A stretch of 35,402 nucleotides of DNA, from positions 1 through 35,402 of the IMG/VR virus record IMGVR_UViG_3300025674_000160. One strand, written 5' to 3'. Below are positions 4,054 to 28,000 of the stretch, piece by piece. The DNA is from a virus. The number at the start of each line of letters is the position of its first letter. The first letter of the stretch is position 1. A program made the translations under genes and the position numbers. The notes under the pieces are model-generated. The model saw nothing but the letters and a program-made list of their open reading frames with translations. It was not told the DNA's origin and did no database searches.

Positions 4054-4935
4054 ATGAATAAAGAATATATTAATGAGATGTTGGCTATTCAAGAGAAAGC
4101 TTACATCGACCCAAAAGAAAAAGTATCATATCCGCCAGTAGCAATAAGTATGGGAAACTTTAAAGCAGGACAAGAAGTATATCCAATTCCAATAGGAACT
4201 TATGGTAACTTTAGTTTTATACAAGCTCCCCCAAAATCAAAAAAAACATTCTTTGTTAGTTTGCTATCTGCGGTATATTTAAAAGGAAGATTGCCTAATT
4301 ATGCTGATGGTATGTTAGGGCATAGAGACGGAAGATGTTTAGTGCATTTTGATACTGAGCAAGGTAGATTTCATGCTCATAAAGTATTTAGAAGAGTTGT
4401 AGATATGACAGGTATGGATAATGAATGTTATCATACATTTGGTTTAAGAACTCTTGGATATGAAGATAGGTTAAACTTTATAGAATATTATTTATATAAT
4501 CAAGTACAAGATTTAGGATTGGTTATTATAGATGGTATAGCTGATTTAGTTCCTGATGCTAACGACATACAGGAATCAAATAAGGTGATGCAAAAATTAA
4601 TGAAATGGACTGAAGAATTAGATTGTCATATTATTACTGTTATACATTCTAATTTTGGTTCTGATAAACCTACAGGACACTTAGGTTCTTTCTTAGAGAA
4701 AAAAGCTGAGACACAGATTAGCTTAGAAAAAAATACTGTGCATGAAGAAATGGTAACCGTTAAATGTAAAAGGAGTAGAGGATTTCCTTTTGAAACATTT
4801 AGCTTTAAAATAGATAAACAAGGTCATCCTAAAATGGTTGACGATTTATATGAGATTATAGATAATAATAATATTGATGCGACTAGAGTTCCGATTTCCG
4901 ATAAGGGCCATACCCCATCAGTCAGTAAAATTTAG
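4054..4935 (+). CDS. RepA/DnaB-like AAA ATPase (replicative helicase candidate)
   Basis: The 293-residue RecA-fold ATPase has a variant Walker A (QAPPKSKKTFFVSLL, residues 57-71), where the usual second Gly is Lys; an acidic motif (VHFDTEQGRFHAHKVF, 97-112); Walker B (LGLVIIDGIADLV, 154-166); and a sensor-like ITVIHSNFGSD (194-204) before GHLGSFLEKKAET. This order fits the AAA_25/RepA group of hexameric helicases and loaders. The first ATG after the terminator is 4054 (AACAGATGAA); the frame extends upstream through the hairpin without a credible start. Its end overlaps the RusA gene by 59 bases. Helicase versus recombination ATPase cannot be settled here. Confidence 0.85.
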   Translation: MNKEYINEMLAIQEKAYIDPKEKVSYPPVAISMGNFKAGQEVYPIPIGTYGNFSFIQAPPKSKKTFFVSLLSAVYLKGRLPNYADGMLGHRDGRCLVHFDTEQGRFHAHKVFRRVVDMTGMDNECYHTFGLRTLGYEDRLNFIEYYLYNQVQDLGLVIIDGIADLVPDANDIQESNKVMQKLMKWTEELDCHIITVIHSNFGSDKPTGHLGSFLEKKAETQISLEKNTVHEEMVTVKCKRSRGFPFETFSFKIDKQGHPKMVDDLYEIIDNNNIDATRVPISDKGHTPSVSKI

Positions 4936-13418: not shown

Positions 13419-13482
13419 AAATCAATAAAAAACGACTAAAATTGACAAAAAATGATAAAAATAACATAAAAAACAATAAAAA
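13326..13482. other. Sixteen helically phased A-tracts (probable curved DNA)
   Basis: A-tracts of 3-6 or more A begin at 13326, 13334, 13347, 13356, 13367, 13376, 13386, 13396, 13407, 13417, 13427, 13438, 13447, 13457, 13468 and 13478. From first to last centre the mean spacing is about 10.1 bases, one turn of B-DNA. Parts are true tandem repeats: a 20-base unit at 13341-13380 (one mismatch) and a 10-base unit ATCAATAAAA at 13411-13430. Phased A-tracts of this number produce strong intrinsic bending. An origin, nucleoid-protein site or transcription enhancer are the likely kinds of role. Confidence 0.8.
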
Positions 13483-13805
13483 TGAGACAAATAACAGAAA
13501 AATCAGTAAAAAACTTCTTAAATGAAGATAATTTCAATAAAAATAATACTCAAGTATTAAAAAATGAAGATACGACAGGATTTTATCTTCACGGAAATTT
13601 AATTGCGTTAAATCGTAAAGGAAAAATAATAATAACAAATGCTGGCTGGTTCAGTAACACAACAAAAGAGAGACTAAACGGAATTTTACAAAATTTAGGT
13701 TTTGATAAAATTTACCAAAAAAACTTTGAATGGTTTTTAGCTGGTCAAAAATGGAACGGGAAGCCAGCTCGACTTCTTAAACATAATAGGTGGGAATATG
13801 TATAA
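13482..13805 (+). CDS. Conserved phage hypothetical protein (N-T-x-V ... TTKERLNG family)
   Basis: The 107-residue protein begins MRQITEKSVKNFLNEDNFNK, then has NTQVLKNEDTTGFYLHGNLI, KIIITNAGWFSNTTKERLNG and FEWFLAGQKWNGK. The pattern of an NT.V strand, a LxGNLIA strand, a GW.S.TTKERLNG helix and a W(F/Y)L.G..W.G end is a widespread small phage family of unknown function. Its last ten codons run through a diverged copy of the dispersed repeat (13777-13791), encoding LLKHNRWEYV, so the C-terminus may be repeat-derived. Confidence 0.8.
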   Translation: MRQITEKSVKNFLNEDNFNKNNTQVLKNEDTTGFYLHGNLIALNRKGKIIITNAGWFSNTTKERLNGILQNLGFDKIYQKNFEWFLAGQKWNGKPARLLKHNRWEYV

Positions 13806-14231: not shown

Positions 14232-14262
14232 TTTGTTTATAAAAAAAATTGTTATATCTTTG
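14232..14262 (+). promoter_or_regulatory. Perfect Bacteroidota promoter (TTTG-N19-TATCTTTG)
   Basis: TTTG (14232-14235), 19 bases and TATCTTTG (14255-14262) match the full consensus. Transcription should start near 14268, which makes the ATG at 14294 the start of the first gene rather than the earlier in-frame ATG at 14267. The transcript carries the ribozyme at 14455. Confidence 0.85.
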
Positions 14263-14293
14263 AAGCATGATTAACAATATAAATTTAAATACT

Positions 14294-14452
14294 ATGAAAA
14301 CTTTAACAAACAAATTAAATTCTGAATTCTTTATTAACTTATTAGGTAAAACAATTATTTACTCTCTCGGCTTATTAGCTGGTGTTGGAATTGTTGGTAT
14401 GATTTATCAAATAGTGTTCAAAGGAGTTACGGGAGATTTCGGAATTTTCTAA
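14294..14452 (+). CDS. Small membrane protein
   Basis: The 52-residue protein begins MKTLTNKLNSEFFINLLGKT and has one membrane segment (IIYSLGLLAGVGIVGMIYQIV, about residues 21-41). The earlier ATG at 14267 falls at the predicted transcription start, so 14294 is chosen. The hammerhead ribozyme begins 3 bases after the stop codon, so its mRNA would get a defined 3' end 21 bases downstream. No family recognised. Confidence 0.65.
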   Translation: MKTLTNKLNSEFFINLLGKTIIYSLGLLAGVGIVGMIYQIVFKGVTGDFGIF

Positions 14453-14454
14453 AA

Positions 14455-14512
14455 CGAAACGCCTGCGGGCGTCTATCTCTAAGGGTTGAAAGGAGATACT
14501 GATGAGTAACCC
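14455..14512 (+). ncRNA. Type II hammerhead ribozyme with pseudoknot
   Basis: All core positions are present in the order of a type II (stem II open) hammerhead. C14455-GAAA (14456-14459) leads into stem III, 14459-14463 with 14468-14472 (ACGCC/GGCGT, loop TGCG). The cleavage site is GTC, cutting after C14473. Stem I pairs TATCTC 14474-14479 with GAGATA 14493-14498. CTGATGA (14499-14505) and G14506, which pairs with C14455, complete the core. GGGTT in the stem I loop (14483-14487) pairs with AACCC (14508-14512), a pseudoknot of the kind reported for bacterial type II hammerheads, where stem II is very short. Cleavage would separate the transcript between two tiny membrane-protein genes. Confidence 0.92.
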
Positions 14513-14528
14513 ACAAAAAAACAATATT

Positions 14529-14651
14529 ATGAAAAAATACAACAAACTTAACAAATGGGAAAAAATGGAAGTTCAGTTAGTCGGCTGGGGTTTTATCTTA
14601 GCTTTCTTAACTTTCTTTTTATTATTACCAAATTTAATTTTATCACTATGA
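14529..14651 (+). CDS. Small membrane protein downstream of the ribozyme
   Basis: The 40-residue protein begins MKKYNKLNKWEKMEVQLVGW and ends in one hydrophobic segment (GFILAFLTFFLLLPNLILSL, residues 21-40). Leader ACAATATTATG; its stop shares bases with the next ATG (ATGA at 14648). Ribozyme cleavage would leave its message with a 56-base 5' leader starting with a 5'-OH. No family recognised. Confidence 0.6.
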   Translation: MKKYNKLNKWEKMEVQLVGWGFILAFLTFFLLLPNLILSL

Positions 14652-15012: not shown

Positions 15013-15282
15013 ATGGAAACAATATACATGACAGAAACAAGATACATTAAAAAACCTAATACTAAAACAACCTACGCTGAGGAAGGAAAAGAAATGCAAA
15101 GAATATCAAGAACAGACTATTCAAGAATAACGGGAGAAGATACTTTAAATTGGTTCAGAAGATTAGGCGGAACAGAAACGGCTCAAAGGTCTTATACTTG
15201 TAGAGGCTATTTAATAACCAAACTAACAAGTACAAGCCCAGACAAACAAACAAAAATCATTAGAGAGTTTAATTTTAGTTAG
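15013..15282 (+). CDS. Hypothetical protein, last gene of the accessory block
   Basis: The 89-residue protein begins METIYMTETRYIKKPNTKTT; the middle (RISRTDYSRITGEDTLNWFR followed by RLGGTETAQRSYT) and C-terminus (GYLITKLTSTSPDKQTK) suggest a small mixed alpha/beta protein. The RxxGGTETAxRSYT motif recurs in phage proteins, as far as I recall, with no function known. A strong terminator follows 22 bases after the stop. Confidence 0.7.
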   Translation: METIYMTETRYIKKPNTKTTYAEEGKEMQRISRTDYSRITGEDTLNWFRRLGGTETAQRSYTCRGYLITKLTSTSPDKQTKIIREFNFS

Positions 15283-15304: not shown

Positions 15305-15329
15305 AGAGGGCTTAGGCCCTCTTTTTTTT
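15305..15329 (+). terminator. Intrinsic terminator ending the accessory block
   Basis: GAGGGC (15306-15311), loop TTAG, GCCCTC (15316-15321) and a T8 run. The 16-base core is identical to that of the terminator at 2593, more than 12 kb away. Confidence 0.9.
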
Positions 15330-15699
15330 GCTCTATATCTAAGTAATTTAACACAACGTATATTATAGCTCTTTTTCTATAACTCTTTTAATATCAATTT
15401 AATTAGCTGTCAGAGATATAATAAACACTTCTCATTTAAGCCCCTTTTAAGCCATTCTAAGCCAATATCTTTTTATTCTAATAGTATAACCTCACTCAGA
15501 TAATTTAAAGGCCTTAGAAAGCTTCTTTTATATAGTTTTAAAGTTTTGTTAAATATGTATAAATATTTGCATATTAACGTAAAATGAACATAGGGCATCT
15601 GAGTAGACCGTTTCTATGAATTCAAACCATTTTGACTATAGGGGTGGCCTTATTCTTAGCAACCCAAATAGGTTAGTCTATCTAGAAAATATAAATATG

Positions 15700-15718
15700 G
15701 TTGACAAAAAGTGTCAAC
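15700..15718. promoter_or_regulatory. Perfect inverted repeat GTTGACA-N5-TGTCAAC
   Basis: A 7-base perfect dyad with a 5-base centre (AAAAG). The size fits either an operator for a dimeric regulator or a short RNA hairpin. It is the cleanest dyad of the non-coding region 15330-15980. Confidence 0.5.
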
Positions 15719-15771
15719 TAATCTTACTTAATATTATGTAATTAAAATAGGAATATTATTGCAGTTCTATT

Positions 15772-15850
15772 GCGGCCCCCTAAACATCTTTAAAAATAAA
15801 AAAATATGCAGGTAAGTTTGAATATTGTTGGGCCGCTTACGAAAGATGTT
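15772..15850 (+). ncRNA. Candidate pseudoknotted RNA
   Basis: Two perfect inverted repeats interleave: GCGGCCC (15772-15778) with GGGCCGC (15830-15836), and AACATCTTT (15783-15791) with AAAGATGTT (15842-15850). The order A-B-A'-B' is that of an H-type pseudoknot with linkers of 4, 38 and 5 bases; AATAT/ATATT (15803-15807 with 15822-15826) could form a hairpin in the long linker. A 7-base all-G/C stem is notable in such AT-rich DNA. A 23-codon frame (15806-15877, MQVSLNIVGPLTKDVKGNNN) overlaps it and could instead be the real content. Confidence 0.45.
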
Positions 15851-15980
15851 AAAGGAAATAACAATGCAATGACTTAACTGACTTATTTTATCTGAACCAA
15901 CTGCCTAACTCTTATGACAGAAGTTTGGGAACTTTTACTGTAGATTTCCTGCTACTATTAGATAACTACAATATACGATT

Positions 15981-16014
15981 TTTGTTCAACCTATACAAGT
16001 ATTTATTATATTAG
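15981..16014 (+). promoter_or_regulatory. Likely promoter of the structural module
   Basis: TTTG (15981-15984), a 22-base spacer and TATATTAG (16007-16014) resemble the Bacteroidota -33/-7 pair, with a longer spacer than the two accessory-block promoters. Transcription would begin near 16020, giving a leader of about 29 bases that contains the AGTTATCATATTATG element. Confidence 0.6.
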
Positions 16015-16035
16015 TGGTACAATATTAATAAAATA

Positions 16036-16051
16036 AAGTTATCATATTATG
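16036..16051 (+). promoter_or_regulatory. AAGTTATCATATTATG element at a structural gene start
   Basis: The element ends with the start codon ATG (16049-16051) of the first structural gene. The same 15-16 base sequence ends at the start codons at 23562 (AAGTTATCATAATATG) and 28091 (TAGTTATCATATTATG), and a near copy lies at 25931. Confidence 0.7.
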
Positions 16052-27408: not shown

Positions 27409-27419
27409 TAATAAATAAT

Positions 27420-27447
27420 AAGGCAGGTCTAACCGCCTGCCTTTTTT
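27420..27447 (+). terminator. Intrinsic terminator after the major capsid gene
   Basis: AAGGCAGG (27420-27427), 8-base loop, CCTGCCTT (27436-27443) and a T run to 27447. Confidence 0.9.
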
Positions 27448-27469
27448 AATAACCTTAAAAACTAATAAT

Positions 27470-28000
27470 ATGTCTTGTAATTTATCACTTTTTAGAACAG
27501 AACCTTGTAAAGACAGCGTTGGTGGGTTAAGTAAAATCTGGTTTGTGAATTATGATGATGACCTTTATGGGAATTTAACATTTGATTCTACAAACACAGA
27601 CGCTATTGAATCTGTATCAGGAACACCGTCTGCTTATGAATATGATATAAAAGGAGCTTCTACGTTCACTCAAAATATTCAAGCAAGTAGAGAAAATGGA
27701 ACAACTGCTTTTGAGCAAGTTCTTGAATTAACTTTACATAAATTAACTATTGCTGACAATAAAGAATTAAAACTTCTTTCTTTTGGTAGACCTCACGTTA
27801 TCATTGAAGATAACAATGGAAATTATTTCTTAGCAGGTGCACAGCATGGTATGGATGTTTCTGGAGGAACTATCGTAACTGGTGGAGCTATGGGAGACTT
27901 AAGTGGATATACACTTACGTTAACTGGAATGGAAAAAGCACCAGCTTACTTTATGGAATCTGACCCAGCTACTGTTGGATTTACTGTTGTTAATTCTTAA
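27470..28000 (+). CDS. Structural protein, likely major tail tube protein
   Basis: The 176-residue protein begins MSCNLSLFRTEPCKDSVGGL and shows alternating strands with EYDIKGASTFTQNIQASREN, FEQVLELTLHKLTIADNKEL, SFGRPHVIIEDNNGNYFLAG and MGDLSGYTLTLTGMEKAP. Length and beta content fit a tail tube subunit, and related proteins are abundant virion components in flavobacterial phages. It has its own leader between two terminators, which suits high expression. The stop codon TAA lies inside a repeat copy. Confidence 0.7.
   Translation: MSCNLSLFRTEPCKDSVGGLSKIWFVNYDDDLYGNLTFDSTNTDAIESVSGTPSAYEYDIKGASTFTQNIQASRENGTTAFEQVLELTLHKLTIADNKELKLLSFGRPHVIIEDNNGNYFLAGAQHGMDVSGGTIVTGGAMGDLSGYTLTLTGMEKAPAYFMESDPATVGFTVVNS

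Follow-up and report, generated by a model that had tools for sequence, protein, structure and literature searches.

The window, that is, the whole stretch of 35,402 nucleotides analysed (IMG/VR record IMGVR_UViG_3300025674_000160), appears from protein comparisons to come from a marine phage related to flavobacterial phages of the genus Inhavirus. Its terminase and portal proteins showed 53 and 38% identity, respectively, to their closest matches, the Nonlabens phages P12024S/L, and this kinship backed the flavobacterial host group put forward in the original prediction. Closer relatives were found within IMG/VR, with portals 71–99% and terminases 69–93% identical. The region of interest is a putative operon of four small genes, with a hammerhead ribozyme between the first two:

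14232–14262, + strand: match to the flavobacterial-type promoter pattern TTTG-N19-TATCTTTG, in the non-coding gap before the gene at 14294
14294–14452, + strand: gene 1, hydrophobic protein of 52 amino acids, judged from its sequence a probable one-helix membrane protein
14451–14520, + strand: type II hammerhead ribozyme, whole matched stretch (52.0 bits, E 1.5e-12 with model R1, described below; 27.6 bits with Rfam RF02276 over 14452–14515)
14529–14651, + strand: gene 2, hydrophobic protein of 40 amino acids, probable membrane protein, with an orthologue in L294
14648–14989, + strand: gene 3, protein of 113 amino acids, PHROG match to phrog_10208 (no function assigned)
15013–15282, + strand: gene 4, protein of 89 amino acids, PHROG match to phrog_16226 (no function assigned)
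15305–15330, + strand: intrinsic-terminator-like hairpin AGAGGGCUUAGGCCCUCU followed by a U tract, the putative operon end

The 76-base gap that had been described between two tiny membrane-protein genes was found at 14453–14528. Gene 1 has an alternative start at 14267 and ends with a TAA codon (14450–14452) 3 nt before position C11.1 of the ribozyme. A perfect promoter had also been claimed upstream; the pattern is indeed present, but it is weak evidence by itself, since it occurs five times in the window against 2.3 occurrences expected by chance. Searches for relatives of gene 1 in Pfam, PHROG and IMG/VR, made also in order to see whether this gene travels with the ribozyme, returned none. 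The gene 2 orthologue in the IMG/VR relative L294 lies at 4220, shares 61% identity with gene 2 where the two align, and starts at the equivalent ATG.

None of the 114 searched records of relatives, many of them fragments lacking the region, carried a hammerhead, so the ribozyme at this position looks lineage-specific. In L294, whose terminase fragment is 93% identical, another gene stands in front of the gene 2 orthologue, and the ribozyme is missing. Since neither gene 1 nor the ribozyme occurs in L294, and IMG/VR holds no relative of gene 1, the two seem to be specific to this lineage, within a variable small-gene operon lying between the promoter match and the terminator-like hairpin. No hammerhead with the same stem I was found in IMG/VR, a DNA-level search of named phages gave no full-length match to the window's hammerhead, and no orthologous copy in which compensatory stem changes could be sought was found among the relatives examined. 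The refuting outcome named with the original prediction, stems unpaired in close relatives, therefore had no copy to which it could apply.

Several other features were observed nearby. About 700 bases (15340–16048) separate the operon terminator from the gene at 16049; they have no open reading frame of at least 50 codons, contain the inverted repeat GTTGACA-AAAAG-TGTCAAC at 15700–15718 and may be a regulatory or origin region. The phrog_554 (Kyano_Gp96) gene of the window (13482–13805) ends 650 nt before the hammerhead. Downstream of this gene, in the window phage (13806–13876) and in its relatives (L294, 3309–3360; L251, 4165–4245), the short repeat TTAAAC(A/G)(T/C)AGTAGGTTTTT occurs in two to four copies, perhaps as a terminator or a protein-binding array. 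L043 (5584–5670) and L326 each carry their hammerhead immediately before the gene for a homologue of the phrog_554 protein.

Elements of the ribozyme and their statistical support

The ribozyme is made up of the following elements:

14455–14459, + strand: C11.1 and the GAAA core (A15.1 is 14459, paired with U16.1), from the sequence and the Rfam alignment
14459–14472, + strand: stem III, 5 bp with a UGCG tetraloop, −8.7 kcal/mol
14473, + strand: C17, with cleavage predicted at 14473/14474 from the GUC triplet (14471–14473) and the alignment to Hammerhead_II
14474–14498, + strand: stem I, six Watson–Crick pairs and one U·G pair, with a loop of 11 nt
14483–14487, + strand: 5′ arm of the pseudoknot, GGGUU, in loop I, in the same register as in L324–L334 by sequence comparison
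14499–14506, + strand: CUGAUGA core (14499–14505) and G10.1 (14506), from the sequence and covariance-model alignments
14508–14512, + strand: 3′ arm of the pseudoknot, AACCC, directly 3′ of the 2-bp stem II, by sequence comparison

Every base and helix named in the original prediction was present: the core bases, a stem III of five pairs, the GUC triplet, a stem I of six pairs, CUGAUGA and the 10.1–11.1 pair. The arms of stem III (14459–14463/14468–14472) pair from A14459–U14472 through C14463–G14468, and those of stem I (14474–14479/14493–14498) read UAUCUC/GAGAUA, with U14480·G14492 as a seventh pair. Stem II consists of only 2 bp (C14455–G14506 and A14454–U14507). The predicted pseudoknot between loop I and the tail was likewise recovered, with both arms in place (14483–14487 with 14508–14512). 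The invariant core is complete (C-GAAA, a UH cleavage site and CUGAUGA-G at 14455–14459, 14472–14473 and 14499–14506), stems I and III are closed by loops with stem II left open, and the pseudoknot between loop I and the 3′ tail, for which at least 4 bp are expected in this type, has 5 bp (GGGUU/AACCC). Compared with a group of AT-rich phages described below, the window has about 2 nt more in the loop 3′ of the pseudoknot arm, a length still within the range of the class. A nested minimum-energy fold favored the pseudoknot helix over stem I; the two energies are near each other (−14.2 kcal/mol for stems I and III, −13.0 for the pseudoknot helix and stem III), and stem I and the pseudoknot helix coexist in the pseudoknotted structure. 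At the sequence level, these features confirm that the window holds a complete type II hammerhead with its pseudoknot.

The search with the Rfam type II covariance model, proposed as a check along with the original prediction, returned a match. Hammerhead_II (RF02276) aligned end to end with 27.6 bits and an E of 2.8e-5 for the 35-kb record, a score below the Rfam gathering score of 37 bits, which is a curation threshold and not a structural criterion. At the same E threshold, none of 14 control genomes contained a match. A second covariance model, R1, which left the window out and took 50 type II hammerheads from other uncultured phages as its seeds, gave 52.0 bits (E 1.5e-12), the runner-up site in the window reaching 8.9 bits. 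Most of these seeds had been retrieved by a search pattern modelled on stem III and the core of the window, which inflates the R1 score somewhat; the Rfam score is free of this bias. In 300 Mb of simulated first-order Markov sequence with the composition and dinucleotide make-up of the window, hammerheads with a stem III of at least 5 and a stem I of at least 6 pairs appeared at 0.0005 per window. The motif is therefore statistically significant. A scan of the whole window found no other RNA family at its gathering score and no other ribozyme family at E ≤ 5, which leaves gene 1 without a second known flanking ribozyme to allow the release of a unit or circle. On the minus strand, 27409–27472 matched the FopS sRNA family of Bacteroidetes below threshold (26.8 bits; gathering score 56), perhaps only as a terminator hairpin.

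Type II hammerheads in phages and their place at gene junctions

Type II hammerheads with a pseudoknot are abundant in phages: a pattern scan of IMG/VR found at least 119 viral stretches carrying one. Among the matches listed, 112 distinct hits had been picked by pattern only, with no selection for stem I or pseudoknot. Of these 112, 108 had 4 or more pairs in stem I, compared with 5 of 112 in shuffled sequence; pseudoknots of 4 bp or more were seen in 107, compared with 59 of 112 when the tail was random. In an alignment of 50 phage copies, two-sided changes were found at each of the seven pairs of stem I and each of the five pairs of the pseudoknot, and 89% of the cells were paired, against 68% in shuffled alignments; the test on the 112 hits is the fairer one, since the 50 rows were chosen for having stem I and the pseudoknot. 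Among AT-rich phage copies the pseudoknot arms also covary, being GGGUU/AACCC in L325 and GGGCU/AGCCC in L330. This covariation supports the structure across the class, not at the site in the window. At least four type II hammerhead matches each were observed in phage loci of less than 15 kb (L089, L096, L108, L109, L002, L005, L033, L045, L061, L064, and L079).

Placement was analysed among the matches listed, after clustering at 85% identity had left 112 phage copies. An upstream open reading frame, counted only if it had at least 50 codons, stopped 1–10 nt before C11.1 in 71% of these copies, against 3% at random positions, and in half of the copies the upstream stop codon lay 2–4 nt before C11.1. 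The next ATG followed G10.1 by 12–45 nt in 77%. Hammerheads of bacterial genomes (33 clusters) gave the same picture. In the window the distances are 3 nt from stop to C11.1 and 23 nt from G10.1 to the next ATG; both fall well inside the class distribution, so its position is ordinary. The placement had been suggested to be unusual, which was not supported: a junction directly after a stop codon and 20–35 nt ahead of the next start is the usual location of phage type II hammerheads. Such tight packing may be due to the compactness of phage genomes, without any role.

Predicted cleavage of the message and alternative readings

Based on these results, we consider it highly probable that the pseudoknot-stabilised type II hammerhead cuts once in cis, between C14473 and U14474, a phage message of about 1.06 kb, parting gene 1 from genes 2–4. 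This message would run from a promoter near 14232–14262 to the terminator at 15305–15330. A single cut would leave the gene 1 part with an end 21 nt past its stop codon, carrying the stem III hairpin and a 2′,3′-cyclic phosphate; the part with genes 2–4 would open with a 5′-OH and the hairpin of stem I, roughly 55 nt ahead of the gene 2 ATG. The use of the cut might be to uncouple the stability or the expression of the two parts. Cleavage of this RNA in the cell, its effect on the message and any benefit to the phage are inferred. Type II hammerheads with this pseudoknot and a stem II of 1–2 bp cleave rapidly at 0.5 mM Mg2+, and a natural hammerhead cluster cleaved itself in Escherichia coli, while in vitro cleavage failed for 4 of the 18 consensus hammerheads tried (PMC3088659). 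Insertions close to the pseudoknot lowered the cleavage rate of one published construct by orders of magnitude, a caution with regard to the longer loop in the window.

The alternative that survives best, which we regard as a serious though less likely reading, is that the hammerhead, although genuine by descent, does nothing for the phage and arrived with gene 1 as a neutral passenger or a selfish element, its cleavage being tolerated. It concerns benefit, not chemistry, and thus overlaps with the cleavage proposed above. It agrees with the absence of gene 1 and the ribozyme from L294, the closest relative having gene 2, with the lack of IMG/VR relatives of gene 1 and of the ribozyme in any relative examined, and with published hammerheads flanking small non-conserved open reading frames (PMC6155905). 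The intact core speaks against it, as does the location of the class at gene junctions, although compact phage genomes could yield the latter without a role.

A more specific role was also considered, namely that phage type II hammerheads, including that of the window, are standard cistron separators held in fixed register to the upstream stop (mode 2–3 nt), so that the terminating ribosome covers the core and delays the cut until upstream translation stops; we think this improbable. Since the class starts almost directly after a stop codon, the question of a benefit to the phage can be tested by a one-base mutation between two small genes.

That the motif is a chance resemblance or a decayed, inactive hammerhead is very unlikely. 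The window's score is under the Rfam gathering score and there is one copy only, with no orthologue; against this stand the R1 E of 1.5e-12, even if somewhat inflated by the seed pattern, the rarity of stems of this size in simulation (0.0005 per window), and the further agreements of pseudoknot, junction placement and a tail ..CCCACAAA common to other phages.

Least probable of all is a riboregulator of gene 2, in which the core AUG (14502), in frame with AUG 14529 and preceded at 6 nt by AAGGAG (14490–14495, in stem I), would be the true start and the fold or cut would control translation directly: in L294, which has no hammerhead there, the orthologue begins at the counterpart of AUG 14529, and the core AUG opens a long frame in 67 of 201 hammerheads, the one third expected by chance, for which the core AUG was rejected as the gene 2 start. 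In addition, Shine–Dalgarno sequences are little used by Bacteroidota, and the 5′ arm of stem I remains on the downstream product, so AAGGAG would not be freed by cleavage.

Comparison with known systems

The hammerhead for which we propose a single cis cut is a known kind of ribozyme in an ordinary phage position, having all structural features of type II and a score below Rfam's curation threshold. The type II architecture with a pseudoknot and a stem II of 1–2 bp was described at prophage gene junctions, in bacteria and prophages, by Perreault et al. (2011; PMC3088659). With RF02276 and that description the window shares the order of the parts, the invariant core, GUC, a 2-bp stem II, the pseudoknot between loop I and the 3′ tail, and a phage or prophage setting between genes; it differs in its 27.6 bits (under 37), an A–U second pair in stem II and an AT-rich loop, and in being a single copy instead of a cluster. 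Good phage copies are missed by Rfam's gathering score. In PDB 8YDC (PMC11300833) a pseudoknot also fills the role of helix II, although this is a designed two-strand construct in which helix II was replaced by the pseudoknot. A 2017 review noted that hammerheads flank small non-conserved open reading frames and are linked with phages (PMC6155905).

The AT-rich uncultured phages L014, L043, L055, L056, L324–L328, and L330–L334 share with the window a 2-bp stem II (C–G plus an A–U type pair), a one-base linker, a pseudoknot of the GGGYY/RRCCC type and the tail ..CCCACAAA. They differ in stem I sequence and in a stem III of 5–6 bp, and the likeness is one of motif, with no phage kinship claimed; a search for their host through their terminase gave only distant matches. 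Among 42 pattern hits in 84,980 bacterial and archaeal species no title named a Bacteroidota organism, and a literature search found no hammerheads in Bacteroidota or flavobacterial phages; neither search was exhaustive, and absence is not established. The present case extends the range of well-supported type II hammerheads to a relative of the flavobacterial Inhavirus phages. An isolated phage with type II hammerheads at gene junctions is Streptomyces phage R4 (NC_019414; 63.6 and 61.3 bits with R1), which is unrelated to the window phage, GC-rich and carries several copies close together. In its record (L379), three type II hammerheads, two of them clear and the third weaker, lie unannotated at junctions of small genes.
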